A stretch of 64,000 nt of DNA, from contig NZ_CAUI01000023.1 in NCBI RefSeq assembly GCF_000350165.1, positions 310,001 through 374,000 of the forward strand. The letters run 5' to 3'. This stretch comes from Halanaerobium saccharolyticum subsp. saccharolyticum DSM 6643. Lineage in GTDB: Bacteria; Bacillota; Halanaerobiia; Halanaerobiales; Halanaerobiaceae. Within the stretch, counting starts at the first letter, position 1; each line of letters begins with the position of its first letter. Shown piece by piece: positions 5,246-42,705 of this stretch. The notes under the pieces were generated by a model. The model ran no database searches and had not been told where the DNA came from. It saw nothing but the letters and a program-made list of their open reading frames with translations. A program made the position numbers and the translations under genes.

Positions 5246-5605
5246 TCAGGAATCTTTAAGCTGATTGACTAGAGCTCTATTTAATTCACCTAGAATACCC
5301 TGTTTGCCAGCCATCTGACTATATTCCTTTGTTAACATATCTGAAAAAACATCCTCAGCATAACCACCATCAAACATTTTTTCTTCAGGTAATGTTTTTT
5401 TCATTGATGAAAACATCTTTTCTAAAAATATAGCAGTAAATTTCTCTGCTTCTTTTTCAATTTCTTTTATATTTTCTTTTTTTTGCTCTATATTATTTGT
5501 CTTAGTAGCTTTATTTTTTAAATTAGCCTTTAATTTTTTAATTTGATTTTCATCTAAATTGTTTTTTTGCATATCCAGTTGCTGTCTAGCCAGATTATTA
5601 TTCAT
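5246..5605 (-). CDS. flgJ: FlgJ N-terminal-type rod-binding protein
   Basis: 119 residues matching only the rod-binding (rod cap) half of proteobacterial FlgJ: FTAIFLEKMFSSMKKTLPE, then GGYAEDVFSDMLTKEYSQ. The muramidase half is absent, as is common outside the Gammaproteobacteria. The lysine/asparagine-rich first 50 residues form a probable coiled coil. It is the last gene of the long minus-strand flagellar run, directly after flgI, which fits rod assembly across the wall. Confidence 0.85.
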   Translation of the reverse strand: MNNNLARQQLDMQKNNLDENQIKKLKANLKNKATKTNNIEQKKENIKEIEKEAEKFTAIFLEKMFSSMKKTLPEEKMFDGGYAEDVFSDMLTKEYSQMAGKQGILGELNRALVNQLKDS

Positions 5606-5647
5606 ACTGTTGATCTTAATTATAATTACCCCCTAAATAAACTATTA

Positions 5648-6781
5648 TTATCTTAATTCCAGTTCTGCATGTAAAGCCCCTGCAGCCTTAATTTTTTGAA
5701 TAATTGAGATAATATCACGTGGAGTAGCACCGATTGCATTTAAAGCTGTAACGAGATCTTCAATTGCATTTTCCTGCCGGACAACCACTAAATTGCTCTC
5801 TTCGCCTTCGTCTACCTCAATTTGAGTTTCTTCAGTTTCAACAGTTTCGCCTCCACTAAACGGAGGAGGTTGAGATACTTCTGTACTGGTGCTTATTTTG
5901 ACTGAAAGATTACCATGCGCAACAGCTACTGTTGAAATTTTAACATTATGAGTAAAAACTACAGTCCCTGTTTTTTCATCAATAACTACTCTGGCTTTTA
6001 GACCGGGACGAACTTTAACTCGATTAATTTCAGCAATAAATTCAACAACTCTATTCGAATAATTATCAGGAACTGAGACATTCACTGTTGCCGAATCAAC
6101 CGCTCTTGCTGCTGCAGAAGAATTTAAATTATTGTTAATTCTGGCTGCAATCTGACTTGCTGTTTCAAAATTTGGATTTTCTAAAATATACGTTAAATTA
6201 TTCGAATCAATTTTTCCAGCAAGTTCTTTTTCTACCATTGCTCCACCTGGTATCCTGCCCGCAGTTGGATGATTTTGACGCTGAGTATTTCCACCACCAC
6301 TAACATTATAGCCTCCAATAGAAACTGGTCCCTGAGCTGAAGCATAAATTTCACCATTAGGTGCCTTAAGAGGCGTCAGCAGGAGTGTTCCACCTTGAAG
6401 ACTATCTGCATCCCCCAGAGAACTAACAGCAATATCAATTTGATCACCGCTATGAACAAATGGAGGTAAAGAAGCTGTCACCATAACTGCAGCAATATTT
6501 CCACTACTCACCTGATTAGCATCGACATTAACTCCAAAATTCTGCAGCATATTAGCAACACTTTGAACAGTTGCCTGACTCCGACTAGAGTCACCACTTC
6601 CATTTAAACCAACAACAATTCCATAACCAATTAATTGATTTTCTCTAACACCCTTAAGTCGAGTAATATTACCTATTTCAACCTCTGTATATTCCGCTGC
6701 TTCCAGCATAAATGGAAAAAGCAAAAATATTAAAGTTAATAGTATTATTTTTTTTAATAAAGTTTTCTTTAAATTAAACAA
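5648..6781 (-). CDS. flgI: Flagellar P-ring protein FlgI
   Basis: 377 residues, the usual FlgI length. A signal peptide (hydrophobic residues about 11-27) precedes the conserved start RLKGVRENQLIGYGIVVGLNGSGDS. The later blocks VTASLPPF, GDQIDI, SSLGDA, GTVVFTHNV and the C-terminal ATPRDIISIIQKIKAAGALHAEL are typical. It forms the peptidoglycan-level bushing around the rod. It sits in an flgG-flgA-flgH-flgI-flgJ run. A P-ring implies a periplasm and outer membrane, unusual for a Firmicute-type gene set. Confidence 0.95.
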   Translation of the reverse strand: MFNLKKTLLKKIILLTLIFLLFPFMLEAAEYTEVEIGNITRLKGVRENQLIGYGIVVGLNGSGDSSRSQATVQSVANMLQNFGVNVDANQVSSGNIAAVMVTASLPPFVHSGDQIDIAVSSLGDADSLQGGTLLLTPLKAPNGEIYASAQGPVSIGGYNVSGGGNTQRQNHPTAGRIPGGAMVEKELAGKIDSNNLTYILENPNFETASQIAARINNNLNSSAAARAVDSATVNVSVPDNYSNRVVEFIAEINRVKVRPGLKARVVIDEKTGTVVFTHNVKISTVAVAHGNLSVKISTSTEVSQPPPFSGGETVETEETQIEVDEGEESNLVVVRQENAIEDLVTALNAIGATPRDIISIIQKIKAAGALHAELELR

Positions 6782-6860
6782 GATACCCCTTCTTTCAATA
6801 ATAGCTGGATTTCCATTTAAACAAATAATCTTACATTATCAATGTCATTTAGCTCCCTAT

Positions 6861-7439
6861 TTAAAAAATAAAATTAAATAATTTGGTCAAAAGTCCAGAT
6901 TCCTGCTTATCACCAATAGGTCCTTCACCTTCATATTCAACATTTGCAGAGGCAACTCTTTTTGAAGAAATTTCATTTTCAAAGTTTACATCCTCTGCTC
7001 TAATTACACCACTTAAGATAATTGTCTGTGTTTCACCATTAATCTTTACCTGTTTTCTGCCCTCTATTTCTAAATTTCCGTTTTCATCAATTTCAATTAT
7101 TTTAGTAGTGATATCCGCTTCTAAAGTACCACTGCGCTGGGTTTGCCCGTCTGCAGATTCCGAATCTGAGTAACTAAAATCAAAGAATGGCAGGAAATCA
7201 AGAATATTAGTTCCTCCTGCGGAATTATAATCACTATCCTGACTTGTACCAGTATTTGCACTCTGAATAGCGCTAGCATCCTCTTCGATTACTACAGTAA
7301 TAATATCGCCAACCTCATACTCGGGAAAATCCTGATAAAAATTTGCAGAATTATCACTCCACAGAGAATTAGCACTTACTGATAGCGTAGAAAATATTAA
7401 AATTAATGAAAATATAATTATTGATTTTTTTGAAATCAT
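6861..7439 (-). CDS. flgH: Flagellar L-ring protein FlgH without a lipobox cysteine
   Basis: 192 residues with an N-terminal signal peptide (cleavage likely after VSA) followed by NSLWSDNSANFYQDF and the FlgH core YEVGDIITVVIEEDASA, LEADITTKIIEI, GNLEIEGRKQVKINGE and LSGVIRAEDV. It forms the outer-membrane ring. Proteobacterial FlgH is usually a lipoprotein with a cysteine after the signal; no cysteine occurs anywhere in this protein, so membrane anchoring must differ. Gene order is flgA-flgH-flgI. Confidence 0.92.
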   Translation of the reverse strand: MISKKSIIIFSLILIFSTLSVSANSLWSDNSANFYQDFPEYEVGDIITVVIEEDASAIQSANTGTSQDSDYNSAGGTNILDFLPFFDFSYSDSESADGQTQRSGTLEADITTKIIEIDENGNLEIEGRKQVKINGETQTIILSGVIRAEDVNFENEISSKRVASANVEYEGEGPIGDKQESGLLTKLFNFIF

Positions 7440-8449: not shown

Positions 8450-9238
8450 TTATCTTTTAAGCTGATTAGCAGTCTGCAGCATTTCATCTGAAGCCTGAAT
8501 GGCTTTCGAATTAGTTTCATATGCTCTTTGGGCTGCAATCATATTTACCATTTCTTCTACAACTTTAACATTAGACATTTCTAAAAAGCCCTGAGTAATT
8601 GTTCCAGTACCATTTGTCCCTGGAGCAGATTGATTGGCCATTCCAGAGGCAGTTGTAACAGAATAAAGGTTACGACCCTGACTTGCTAATCCTGCAGGAT
8701 TAGAAAAGTTATATAACTGAATCTGTCCTGCTTCCTGCATTTGATCAGAACCACCTGGCTTATAACTTACAGTCCCATCTGAAGTAATAGAAATACTTGT
8801 TGCCTCAGGTGGAATATTAATCTGTGGATCAAGATAATAACCATCAGCAGTGACTATGTCTCCATTACTGTCCATTTTAAACGATCCATCTCTAGTATAA
8901 CCAAAATTACCATTAGGCAGCTGAACTCTAAAAAACCCATCGCCTTCAATAATCATGTCCAAAGGACTGTCAGTATTTTGAATGTTTCCCTGAGTGAAAA
9001 TTTTCTGAGTACTATTAACTTTTGAACCATGACCAATTTCAATTCCAGTCGGTACTTCTGCCCCTTGAGCATTCGGGGTCCCAGCATCTTTCATATTTGT
9101 ATAAATTAAATCGGCAAAGTTTATTTTTGATTTTTTAAAACCACTTGTATTAACATTTGCCAGGTTGTTGGAAATTACATCAATATTTGTTTGTTGAGAA
9201 TTCATTCCTGTAGCAGATGTCCATAATGCACTAATCAT
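8450..9238 (-). CDS. flgG: Distal rod protein FlgG
   Basis: 262 residues from the ATG at 9238, chosen over an upstream in-frame start at 9271 because GGAG lies 8 bases upstream and the protein then begins MISALWTSATGMNSQQ, the canonical FlgG start. Also visible are NNLANVNTSGFKKS, GDGFFRVQLPNG, YTRDGSFKMD and the C-terminal SNVKVVEEMVNMIAAQRAYETN with AIQASDEMLQTANQL. The preceding gap holds a structured leader like that of flgE. Confidence 0.96.
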   Translation of the reverse strand: MISALWTSATGMNSQQTNIDVISNNLANVNTSGFKKSKINFADLIYTNMKDAGTPNAQGAEVPTGIEIGHGSKVNSTQKIFTQGNIQNTDSPLDMIIEGDGFFRVQLPNGNFGYTRDGSFKMDSNGDIVTADGYYLDPQINIPPEATSISITSDGTVSYKPGGSDQMQEAGQIQLYNFSNPAGLASQGRNLYSVTTASGMANQSAPGTNGTGTITQGFLEMSNVKVVEEMVNMIAAQRAYETNSKAIQASDEMLQTANQLKR

Positions 9239-9279: not shown

Positions 9280-9336
9280 TCTGCTGTATCTCTCAGTCAA
9301 CAGCAGCACTTCAGCTTCCTTTACAGGTCCAGCTGA
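9280..9336 (-). promoter_or_regulatory. Structured leader RNA motif upstream of flgG (copy 1 of 2)
   Basis: In transcript sense, UCAGCU pairs with AGCUGA (enclosing GGACCUGUAAAGGA, with an inner CCU/AGG), then CUGCUGU pairs with ACAGCAG around a 12-base loop, flanked by AAAUC and GAUAAAU. The same elements in the same order occur before flgE at 26773-26838. This is not a family I can name. Function is unknown; location between flgF and flgG points to post-transcriptional control or RNA processing. Confidence 0.45.
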
Positions 9337-25509: not shown

Positions 25510-26748
25510 TTATCTTTTTAGATTTACTAATTCCTGCAGCATTTCATCTGAGGTTGTTATAAGTTTTGAACTTGCCTGGAACCCTCTCTGAGCAGTAATC
25601 ATATTGGTAAACTCCTGAGAAAGATTGGCATTTGACATTTCTAAAGTAGAAGGCGCTAAATTACCAGTACCTCCAGACCCAGGAAAAGTGTTCTGAGGCT
25701 CTCCAGAATTAACTGATTCTGTAAAGACTCCATCTTTCCGATTTAAACCAGCAGGATTAGAAAAATTCACTAATTTAATCCTAGCAGATGCTTCAGATAA
25801 CCCATTACTATAAGATCCAGTAATATATCCATTTTCATCAAATGAAAAAGATTCTAAATCCCCTTTTTTATAACCAGTAACATCAGAAAAATTAATATCC
25901 GAGTTAGCAGATATTTGAGTTAAATTATTCAAATCAATTTCAATATCATTTCCAATTATACTTGCTATATTATCAGTGTATTGAAATTCACCAGACTGAA
26001 TATCACCATTTGGTAAAAAACTTATATCAAATTCATTAACAGGTGTCGATCCAGAAAATTCCAATTCGGTTTCTGTTTTATCTTCTGCGATTATTTTTCC
26101 TTTTCCAGTCCATTCATCATCAGCGGTATCCTTAGTATAAGTCATCTCAAGAGTATATGAAGAGTTATCCTGAGCTATTATATCGGTAGATACAGTTCTT
26201 TCTTCCCCAGAAGTTATACTTTTATTTAAGTTCCCTCCAAGTGAAACTTCATCTGTAGATTTTGCATTAATTGTAGACTTCAGATTAATTGGATTATTTT
26301 CTTGATTATTATCCAATTCATTTACTGCCCCTACTACCTGTAATCCAGTTGAAAGTGAAAATAAATTTCCTTTAGCATCAAAACCAAAGTTCCCTGCCCT
26401 GGAATATGATTTATTACCATTTTCATCCTGCAGAACAAAAAATCCATCTCCCTGAATAGCTACATCAGAATTTTTTCCTGTTGACTGTAGGTTTCCAGAA
26501 GACATATCACTATCTATACTTCCGATCCCTACTCCAAGTCCAATTTGTTGTGGATTAGTTCCCGCTCTATCACCATTATCTGAAGGTCTTGAAGCACCTT
26601 TCAAAGTCTGACTTAACATTTCTTTAAAAGTAACCCGGCTGCTTTTAAATCCAATTGTATTTACATTTGAAATATTATTTCCTGTTACATCCATCATCTG
26701 CTGATGTGTGTTTAATCCTGACACACCCGCATACATCGATCTTAACAT
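25510..26748 (-). CDS. flgE: Hook protein FlgE
   Basis: 412 residues. N-terminal MLRSMYAGVSGLNTHQQMMD and GNNISNVNTIGFKSSRVTFKEML, a central variable acidic region rich in Ser, Thr, Asp and Asn (about 130-300), and C-terminal LEMSNANLSQEFTNMITAQRGFQASSKLI. The larger middle than flgF/flgG and the neighbours (flgD upstream, flbD downstream) identify it as hook. AAGGAGG precedes the ATG. A structured leader lies upstream. Confidence 0.95.
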   Translation of the reverse strand: MLRSMYAGVSGLNTHQQMMDVTGNNISNVNTIGFKSSRVTFKEMLSQTLKGASRPSDNGDRAGTNPQQIGLGVGIGSIDSDMSSGNLQSTGKNSDVAIQGDGFFVLQDENGNKSYSRAGNFGFDAKGNLFSLSTGLQVVGAVNELDNNQENNPINLKSTINAKSTDEVSLGGNLNKSITSGEERTVSTDIIAQDNSSYTLEMTYTKDTADDEWTGKGKIIAEDKTETELEFSGSTPVNEFDISFLPNGDIQSGEFQYTDNIASIIGNDIEIDLNNLTQISANSDINFSDVTGYKKGDLESFSFDENGYITGSYSNGLSEASARIKLVNFSNPAGLNRKDGVFTESVNSGEPQNTFPGSGGTGNLAPSTLEMSNANLSQEFTNMITAQRGFQASSKLITTSDEMLQELVNLKR

Positions 26749-26772: not shown

Positions 26773-26838
26773 ATCGGAGTTCCACTGTTATCGACAGCAG
26801 AACAGAGCTCCCTGAAAAAGGTCCAGCTCATATCCGAT
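26773..26838 (-). promoter_or_regulatory. Structured leader RNA motif upstream of flgE (copy 2 of 2)
   Basis: In transcript sense an outer stem AUCGGA/UCCGAU closes a three-way junction with two hairpins: GAGCU...AGCUC (containing GGACCU...AGGG) and GUUC-UG-CUGU...ACAG-UG-GAAC. The order AAAUC, AGCUGGACCU, AGG, AGCU, CUGCUGU, ACAG, GAUAAAU is shared with the flgG leader. It lies 25 bases upstream of the flgE ATG, close enough to influence SD access. Confidence 0.5.
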
Positions 26839-26922
26839 TTTAAGCTAAATTTTAGATTTTCCAGCTTAAAGTCTTCATTTTTTCTATTTTTTCAGTTATA
26901 TTTTCATTTTACAATTATCTTG

Positions 26923-35898: not shown

Positions 35899-36300
35899 TT
35901 ATCTACCTCCCTGACTTATAACCTGATTTAAAGTCGAAAAATGACCTGCCGCACGACGGGTCATTACATTATAATATATACTATTTTTGGCCATTTCTGC
36001 CATTTCAAAATCAACATCTACATTATTTTGATCATTACGGTAGCTTTTATTACTATTTGAAACAGTAGTGTTTGGATTAGAATATTCCTTGCGGAAGGGA
36101 ATATGTTTTGAAGTGGTGGTATTTAAGGAAATGTTTTTATTTTGGTCAGCATTTATCTTTTTATTTAACATCGATTTAAAATTAGTATCCTGCCGTTTAT
36201 AGCCTGGGGTCCCAATATTTGCTAAATTGTTCGAAATTAGTTCTCCTCTTTTGACTGCACCATCTAAAGCACCACTAATTATTGATACATAATTATTCAC
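35899..36300 (-). CDS. flgB: Proximal rod protein FlgB
   Basis: 133 residues, starting at GTG with AGGAGG 7 bases upstream. Conserved parts: GALDGAVKRGELISNNLANI, GTPGYKRQDTNFKSML, and NNVDVDFEMAEMAKNSIYYNVMTR (about 92-115). It is the first gene after the c-di-GMP riboswitch leader, so all downstream basal-body genes probably share that control. Confidence 0.95.
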   Translation of the reverse strand: MNNYVSIISGALDGAVKRGELISNNLANIGTPGYKRQDTNFKSMLNKKINADQNKNISLNTTTSKHIPFRKEYSNPNTTVSNSNKSYRNDQNNVDVDFEMAEMAKNSIYYNVMTRRAAGHFSTLNQVISQGGR

Positions 36301-36443: not shown

Positions 36444-36528
36444 ACATGCAACCTGGCAGTCATAACATAATTTCGTTTTTAGACCCATAGTTTTGCGTCA
36501 TTACCTTTCGGTAATTTTGCCAATATTT
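36444..36528 (-). ncRNA. Cyclic di-GMP-I (GEMM) riboswitch aptamer
   Basis: In transcript sense the order of conserved elements is GGCAAA, a stem UUACC-GAAA-GGUAA with GNRA tetraloop, GACGCAAA, CUAUGGGUCUAA (tetraloop-receptor side), a variable stem, then GACUGCCAGGUUGC. These correspond one to one with the c-di-GMP-I consensus known from Vibrio and Clostridia. Downstream, UUGCAUG at the aptamer 3' end (36445-36451) can pair with CAUGCAA (36386-36392), which is followed by a U7 run, giving an alternative hairpin that would compete with the aptamer's closing stem. Whether ligand turns flgB on or off cannot be settled by eye. Confidence 0.85.
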
Positions 36529-36539
36529 ATTTAAATAAG

Positions 36540-36893
36540 TTATAGCAATTTTTCTAAGGATTCCATCACTCTATCTTTCTTAAATGGTTTCACAATAAAG
36601 TCCTTTGCTCCCAGTTCAATTGCTTGAATAACAATTTTTTGTTGTCCCATAGCACTACAAACAACAATTTTCGCAGACGGGTCAATATCTTGAATTGCTT
36701 TTATAGCTTCTAATCCATCCATAATCGGCATTGTAATATCCATAGTCACGATATCGGGCTTTACTTCCTGATAAAGTTCTACAGCTTCCTTCCCATTTTC
36801 TGCTTCTCCGACAACTTCAAAATTATCTTTTAAAATATTTTTCAAATTCAAGCGCATAAAAGCAGCATCATCTACTATTAAAACACTATTCAT
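36540..36893 (-). CDS. cheY: CheY, chemotaxis response regulator
   Basis: 117 residues from the ATG at 36893 (AGGAGG upstream; the TTG at 36914 lies before the SD). Single receiver domain with Asp8/Asp9, phospho-acceptor Asp52 in TMDITMP, Ser80 in VVCSAMG and Lys102 in VKPF. No output domain. It binds FliM and FliY when phosphorylated by CheA. It lies between cheD and the riboswitch leader of flgB. Confidence 0.94.
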   Translation of the reverse strand: MNSVLIVDDAAFMRLNLKNILKDNFEVVGEAENGKEAVELYQEVKPDIVTMDITMPIMDGLEAIKAIQDIDPSAKIVVCSAMGQQKIVIQAIELGAKDFIVKPFKKDRVMESLEKLL

Positions 36894-36985
36894 ATAAGGT
36901 TTACCTCCTAGCAAGTATTTATACTGCTATTAATAATAATAACAAATATATATTTTATTTACAAGAGAAAATTAATATTTTTGTT

Positions 36986-42007: not shown

Positions 42008-42238
42008 TTATTCTGCATTAAATTTTATCTGCTGCAGCTTGTTTAATAAATCTTTATTTTCAGCAGCAGCTCGGTTTTCCTTTTTAACATCTTCTAATAA
42101 TTCTTTGCGTAATATTTCAATCTCTTTGGGTGCACTTATTCCCAACTGTACACTACCATTGTCAATACCAACAACTGTGATTTCTATATCCTGACCAATA
42201 ATGATTTTTTCATCTTTTTTCCTTGTTAAAACCAGCAT
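42008..42238 (-). CDS. csrA: CsrA, RNA-binding translational repressor
   Basis: 76 residues beginning [20 protein letters not shown], with [18 protein letters not shown] and the RNA-contact arginine in ILRKE. It overlaps the fliW stop (TAATG). CsrA dimers bind GGA in hairpin loops and block ribosome entry; a near-consensus target is in the flagellin leader at 57484-57501. FliW relieves it by binding. Confidence 0.96.
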
Positions 42239-42705
42239 TATTCTGACACCTCATCTTTTTGAGCAGGGTTTTCTGCCTGCTGCTCGGCAAAAATTGGAAA
42301 GCGCACACTAAAATTATGATTGTCCAGAATAATCTGGCCGCCTAACTTTTCTTTTAAGTTAATAATTATAGGAGCAGATAGGTTAGCTGTTATTTCCTCT
42401 AATTGATCTTTTAAAGTGATGATATTTAATACTAAAATATCCTCTATTGATTTAATTTCTAGATCTTTTTCTCTTTGATCACTTATTTCAAATTCATAAT
42501 CCTCAATTAAGTTGCCCGGCTCAACCGTAATAAATGCCAGCTCCGGATTGTTAACTGACTGCATAATTATAAATGGTGAATCCTCGGCAAAGGGAAGCAA
42601 AATAAATTCTTTAGCGGTTTCAAAACCAGGCAACCCATTTTTGAAATATATAATTTGATCTTCCTTAATTTCTATTTTACCAAAATCTCTTGTCATTAGC
42701 TCCAA
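42238..42705 (-). CDS. fliW: FliW, CsrA antagonist and flagellin-binding assembly factor
   Basis: 155 residues with the family pattern [50 protein letters not shown] and [24 protein letters not shown] (split). FliW binds either flagellin or CsrA and so links filament export to flagellin translation. TTG at 42705 (AGGGGGG 8 bases upstream) or the ATG at 42696 could be the start. Coupled to csrA. Confidence 0.94.

Follow-up and report, generated by a model that had tools for sequence, protein, structure and literature searches.

A conserved two-hairpin leader RNA before the hook and distal-rod genes of Bacillota, probably a translational switch

Does the short stretch of DNA ahead of the hook gene flgE in Halanaerobium saccharolyticum specify a structured leader RNA, and if so, what does that RNA do? 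In the window (the whole 64,000-nt stretch of DNA analysed here), the hook protein gene flgE, identified by Pfam and NCBIfam, occupies 25510-26748 on the minus strand, and a sequence-only reading had proposed a candidate new RNA motif, a three-way junction, at 26773-26838. That reading named no strand; since flgE is on the minus strand, the leader RNA reads from 26838 to 26773, and on this strand the structure is real as described. We found that the outer stem P1 is complete, as had been claimed, pairing AUCGGA (26833-26838, minus) with UCCGAU (26773-26778, minus), and that it encloses two hairpins. Hairpin 1 (26805-26829, minus), GAGCU-GGA-CCU-UUUUC-AGG-G-AGCUC, consists of GAGCU, an unpaired GGA that forms an internal loop, the pairs CCU/AGG, a single G and AGCUC; its GC, GGAC and GC are nearly invariant, and its outer pairs covary. 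Hairpin 2 (26779-26803, minus) is GUUCUGCUGU-CGAUA-ACAGUGGAAC, with CGAUA as a five-base loop. The element had been placed 25 bases before the flgE ATG, which agrees with the 24 bases that separate 26773 from the ATG at 26748. Without the start region, the 94-nt leader is predicted to fold as the three-way junction (-25.7). The plus strand of 26773-26838 has a folding z of -3.84 (0/200 shuffles as good) but is not the transcript strand; the real evidence for the leader structure is comparative, not this plus-strand score.

Directly 5' of P1, an extra hairpin, UUUAAGCU...AGCUUAAA (26839-26870, minus), is kept in most leaders of the genus. From the stop codon of the preceding gene, TIGR02530, to the element there are ~85 nt in the window and a few nt in most other organisms. 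A promoter or terminator reading was rejected: hairpin 2 is followed by AAAUACUGAAGG, with no U run.

A second copy of the leader lies at 9281-9336 (minus), before the distal rod protein gene flgG (8450-9238, minus; ATG at 9238), the second gene presumed to be regulated. It has the same two hairpins as the flgE leader, with hairpin 1 at 9336-9311 and hairpin 2 at 9306-9281, the latter with a 12-nt loop (9299-9288). Using a covariance model (R1) built from three flgG leaders only, we scanned the 64-kb window with filters off and found the two copies as the two best matches, with 59.7 bits for the flgG leader and 23.4 bits (E 6.6e-5) for the flgE leader. The flgE match is a prediction that no tuning of the flgG set could have produced, and it supports the earlier idea of a leader common to both genes. 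Sitting directly 5' of both, the leader is placed so as to tune them together, as that idea held.

We found the leader far beyond this genome. By DNA search, 10 of the family's 13 other genomes have the flgE leader, and the flgG leader turns up within the genus and in one genome from a different family. Strong matches to R1 in other families of the order sit without exception between flgF and flgG or 5' of flgE; at weak matches in the order (L067-L069 and L071-L080), protein search showed no flagellar gene, and these appear to be chance. A refined model (R2) of 36 sequences matches 49/59 genomes of the class (E<=0.05) and 231/398 genomes drawn across the phylum (E<=0.001), where the E-values of such home-made models are rough, the species are not independent, and the phylum counts are lower bounds since the scan used strict filters. 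Every one of the top-ranked class and phylum matches that we inspected is at flgE or flgG. Among class genomes with no motif or a weak match, 11 of 12 checked lack the export gene flhA; one class genome (G052) is an exception, with flhA and no motif match, and its leader has diverged or been lost. Across the 398 phylum genomes, the motif is in 224/326 flhA-positive and 7/72 flhA-negative genomes, and since the flhA-negative motif genomes G083, G211, G367 and G419 carry flgE or flgG, flhA is likely missing from these assemblies.

Independently, we scanned one genome per species in 84,980 species with a degenerate DNA pattern and found at least 120 stretches. Among the 120 listed, protein search places flgE, flgG, flgF or TIGR02530 next to 119. 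In 113, the adjacent upstream gene is TIGR02530 or flgF, and 109 of these also have a recognised hook or flgG gene downstream (of the other four, three end near a contig or locus edge); six have the downstream gene only. In Bacillus-type loci the hook protein scores FlgG-like with the window's own queries, and it was counted as hook because it follows TIGR02530. The sole listed stretch with neither neighbour in the first protein search (L149) lies in a diverged flagellar operon, after FliI-like and other flagellar ORFs and a TIGR02530-like gene whose match (E 7.5e-5) falls below the cut-off. In this locus (5387-7268, an Oscillospiraceae MAG), the motif is followed by a 454-aa protein that BLAST does not recognise as FlgE. 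The listed matches include Bacillus, Paenibacillus, Lysinibacillus, Clostridium, Sporomusa, Roseburia and a Lactobacillus, and also Bdellovibrionales, a deltaproteobacterial MAG and a MAG labelled Geobacter. Judged by these matches, the leader is conserved across Bacillota and some other bacteria. Conservation limited to the genus is thereby rejected, with matches across order, class, phylum and beyond; relatives do carry the stems, and what had been read as a local motif is phylum-wide.

We found strong covariation in the structure. Standard pairs fill 99.0% of pair cells in 58 diverse sequences, and both partners differ in 186 cells (53 on average in shuffles; 0/500), figures that are somewhat inflated because the alignment was fitted to the proposed structure. 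Two-sided changes occur in 11 of the 14 pairs, the covariation score is 0.638 compared with 0.216 in shuffles (0/500), and pairing falls to <=55% when the partner is shifted by 1-3 columns. These alignments were made by covariance model; MAFFT applied to flgE and flgG leaders together misplaced the gap in the hairpin-1 loop. Hence, with this effect size and the gene context, there is no real doubt about the structure.

Conservation is highest where bases are unpaired or do not covary: in 166 sequences, most of them retrieved with a pattern in which some of this consensus is preset, these parts are GC-n-GGACC...GG-R-R-GC in hairpin 1 and nRAnYGAnnGAn in the hairpin-2 loop. It is thus the hairpin-1 internal loop, GGACC, and the hairpin-2 loop that are almost invariant. 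Most leaders outside the genus type have the 12-nt loop nRAnYGAnnGAn, and the flgE leaders of the window genus and three others of the order (L059, L060 and L070) have five bases, YGANN, apparently the core of the 12-nt form. P1 is replaced yet still pairs in flgE leaders of the order, as ACUGGU/ACCAGU (L059), AACUGG/CCAGUU (L070) and CCGG/CCGG (L060), and as AAGCUGG/CCCGCUU with one mismatch in L011. In 162 leaders, the flanks pair better with their own partner (-4.58 kcal/mol) than with swapped ones (-3.15 kcal/mol, sd 0.15; 0/200), and P1 is weak or absent in many leaders. The proposed three-way junction is supported, with P1 as its weakest part, only loosely conserved outside the genus.

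The GGACCU(C) strand of hairpin 1 is complementary to the Shine-Dalgarno sequence GAGGUC. In the window, CCUUUUUCAG (26821-26812, minus) within hairpin 1 is the complement of the flgE Shine-Dalgarno region CUGAAGGAGG (26767-26758, minus), giving 10 bp with two G-U pairs. For the full window leader, this paired form is the predicted minimum free energy (MFE) fold (-26.7), with an unpaired probability of ~0.1 for the Shine-Dalgarno sequence; with the three-way junction at -25.7, the leader is predicted to be bistable. In the other leaders for which GACCU/AGGUY pairing was tested, the Shine-Dalgarno-paired state lies at a median of 2.5 kcal/mol above the MFE, and about half of the leaders are without a GAGGU-type Shine-Dalgarno sequence.

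The base that follows a GAGGU-type Shine-Dalgarno sequence points the same way. Before 65 genes below the motif it is C in 44, U in 18, A in 2 and G in 1 (C/U 62/65), whereas before 191 other ORFs of the same loci it is G in 144, A in 30, U in 13 and C in 4 (C/U 17/191). G is expected in the other ORFs from the 16S tail; hence, a base able to pair with the conserved G of hairpin 1 is preferred only before genes below the motif. L246 has GGCCC in hairpin 1 together with GGAGGG as its Shine-Dalgarno sequence, so that an A to C change is paired with a U to G change. Leaders form stronger hairpin-1/Shine-Dalgarno duplexes with their own partner (-8.57) than with swapped ones (-7.91; 0/200), in a comparison that does not remove relatedness, as is true of both swapped-pair tests. 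By gene, this effect is clear for flgE leaders and not significant for flgG leaders (12/200). Hence, pairing of the Shine-Dalgarno sequence that excludes hairpin 1 is supported for flgE leaders, and the complementarity, the next-base bias and the predicted bistability together make a translational switch the most likely function.

Which molecule might set such a switch? Just 5' of flgE lies a gene for a flagellar protein of unknown function (TIGR02530/PF12611; 26923-27327, minus), which we consider the candidate RNA partner. In the 398 phylum genomes compared (326 flhA-positive, 285 csrA-positive and 280 TIGR02530-positive), the motif is in 222/273 flagellated genomes with TIGR02530 and in 2/53 without (OR 111, p 2e-28), and 228/231 motif genomes encode the protein. 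Corroborating these results, a search without filters found the leader in 13/13 sampled TIGR02530-positive genomes that the fast scan had missed. Of the two flagellated motif genomes without TIGR02530 (G194 and G381), one looks like a weak match (E 7e-4) and the other like an incomplete genome (79%). Since TIGR02530 adjoins the motif in the same operon, the co-occurrence may reflect linkage and shared ancestry. Linkage can explain part of it; the flgG copies lie elsewhere, and they also occur in TIGR02530 genomes that have the gene at another place (in G350, on another contig). TIGR02530 is present in most flagellated Bacillota sampled, and we found no match to it in 14 control genomes, including E. 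coli and Bacillus subtilis. The sequence-only reading had offered a ligand, CsrA, RNase processing or an export-linked regulator as effector; since the motif tracks TIGR02530, the export-linked protein appears the best of these guesses.

On balance, we consider it somewhat probable that the leader acts in cis, within the long flagellar operon, as a switch of translation, with the TIGR02530 protein as the most likely reader of its shape. In one state, hairpin 1 and hairpin 2 (here with P1) would be formed and the flgE Shine-Dalgarno sequence would be free; in the other, the GGACCU(N) strand of hairpin 1 would pair with the Shine-Dalgarno sequence, turning hook translation off. The flgG gene would carry a copy of this switch. 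The TIGR02530 protein, with its predicted RelE-like domain, would read the shape of the leader, and its binding would favour one state and thus set hook and distal-rod synthesis. The use of both states in cells, the binding of TIGR02530 to the RNA and the direction of control are the points that we infer.

The AlphaFold2 model of TIGR02530 (pLDDT 87; 85 aligned sequences) has two helices followed by antiparallel strands. In structural comparison, the best-ranked matches are mostly chains of the RelE, ParE, HigB, YafQ and YoeB type and the RelE domain of Cami1, with Z up to 6.0 over ~70 residues, where Z < 8 is below a firm fold match. Foldseek gave no E-value below 0.1 with this model. Hence, the modelled resemblance to RelE is suggestive, not firm. 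Sequence searches of the PDB with TIGR02530 gave nothing meaningful, and there are weak matches to DUF4258. The residues S55, H57, R61 and T112 are invariant in the 85 sequences; seen on the RelE-like model, and with the weak DUF4258 similarity, they suggest a possible RNase or a derived RNA-binding domain. At residues 38-42, near the N-terminus, there is an F-x-x-x-L; its F38 never varies, and 76/85 sequences have L at residue 42. FlgD, an early export substrate, has its gate recognition motif at residues 36-40 (PMC8983047), and by analogy with that position we hypothesize that TIGR02530 may be exported. A fuller proposal, which we regard as unlikely, is that TIGR02530 is an exported RNA-binding regulator of RelE fold that, while cytoplasmic, would hold the hook and distal-rod leaders in one state, its export flipping them.

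The same anti-Shine-Dalgarno switch could work without a protein if the junction bound a metabolite or second messenger, with c-di-GMP as the obvious guess. Near-invariant unpaired nucleotides in two loops, the compact size and the Shine-Dalgarno switch itself would fit such a riboswitch, and the c-di-GMP-I riboswitch at the flgB end of the same operon indicates that RNA sensing is used in the flagellar pathway. Metabolite riboswitches usually spread to other genes of their pathway, however, and this leader is restricted to hook and rod genes in all 120 contexts listed; nor would a metabolite predict the near absence of the motif from flagellated genomes without TIGR02530. We therefore judge a small-molecule riboswitch improbable.

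A role in mRNA processing or stability, in which the hairpins would be cut or would shield the 5' end of the flgE (or flgG) segment so that more subunit is made, is less plausible still. It suits an intercistronic site in a long operon, 5' of polymerising subunits, and the predicted likeness of TIGR02530 to RelE-type RNases, but it gives no reason for C or U to be preferred after GAGGU in the Shine-Dalgarno sequences of the genes below.

Flagellin mRNA in Bacillus and Campylobacter is a target of CsrA/FliW. By extension, a CsrA dimer (with FliW) might bind the GGA of hairpin 1 and that of the Shine-Dalgarno sequence; GGA hardly varies in hairpin 1, the Shine-Dalgarno sequence contains it too, and csrA and fliW are both in the window. 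We found no association of the motif with csrA among flagellated genomes (OR 1.29, p 0.51), and 32 motif-positive flagellated genomes have no csrA match. GGA, kept otherwise, is GGC in L246 and L254, and CsrA leaves the conserved CC/GG pairs and the hairpin-2 loop unexplained. CsrA, one of the effectors that had been suggested, is thus very doubtful as the general partner, though it could act here additionally. In the window, csrA and fliW are adjacent and followed by fliS (42009-42705, minus), close to the flagellar operon. Weakest of all, a chance structure or repeat element has practically no likelihood, with nothing in its favour after comparison and with covariation and the flagellar context ruling it out.

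The proposal of a candidate new RNA motif holds for a real structured leader that is apparently new. No Rfam family (4227 searched) reaches its gathering score in the window leader, and Rfam gave no leader match in 20 distant loci and 12 loci of named organisms. We found no report of a flgE/flgG leader motif in the literature searched, including the main texts of motif-discovery papers, whose supplements may list one, and a review of Clostridioides difficile riboswitches. In the window, Rfam matches only a separate c-di-GMP-I riboswitch (36444-36531, minus, read 36531-36444; 71.6 bits), which lies between a cheY-like gene (36540-36914) and flgB (35899-36300) and, from this position, probably controls the start of the flagellar operon. 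In Clostridioides difficile, a c-di-GMP-I riboswitch likewise controls the start of the flagellar operon.

Several known systems resemble this leader in part. The c-di-GMP-I (GEMM) riboswitch RF01051 is also a cis-regulatory RNA of flagellar operons, but the leader does not match it. The flg-Rhizobiales RNA motif is a candidate structured RNA near flagellar genes. Termite-flg (RF01729), listed for the termite hindgut only (PMC2864571), is another such candidate; the leader has no Rfam match. The hag leader with CsrA-FliW (Bacillus subtilis, Campylobacter) shares translational control of a flagellar structural gene through its leader and senses the secretion state of flagellin, whereas here the genes are those of hook and distal rod, the conserved two-hairpin RNA is absent from Rfam, and its occurrence does not depend on the presence of csrA. 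Autogenous leaders of ribosomal proteins likewise have a protein gene beside a structured leader of its own operon and control access to the Shine-Dalgarno sequence, but the protein that would bind the leader here is not ribosomal. FlgM and other exported regulators couple export to gene expression, as TIGR02530 would if exported, although TIGR02530 would act on mRNA and not on a sigma factor. Hence, the leader is of a known kind, a translational leader RNA, but of an unlisted family with a probable dedicated protein.

A widespread structured RNA before the genes of a much-studied machine, found in other phyla as well as across Bacillota, thus seems to have escaped notice; the lack of any TIGR02530 match in the control genomes, E. 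coli and Bacillus subtilis among them, may be part of the reason. The leader offers a handle on how the supply of hook and rod protein is set, and it suggests a role for TIGR02530 in a protein-RNA pair that is directly testable. If the exported-regulator proposal is true, hook synthesis would be tied to export competence by a regulator that parallels FlgM at the mRNA level, and a fold of toxin type would have become a specific reader of mRNA.
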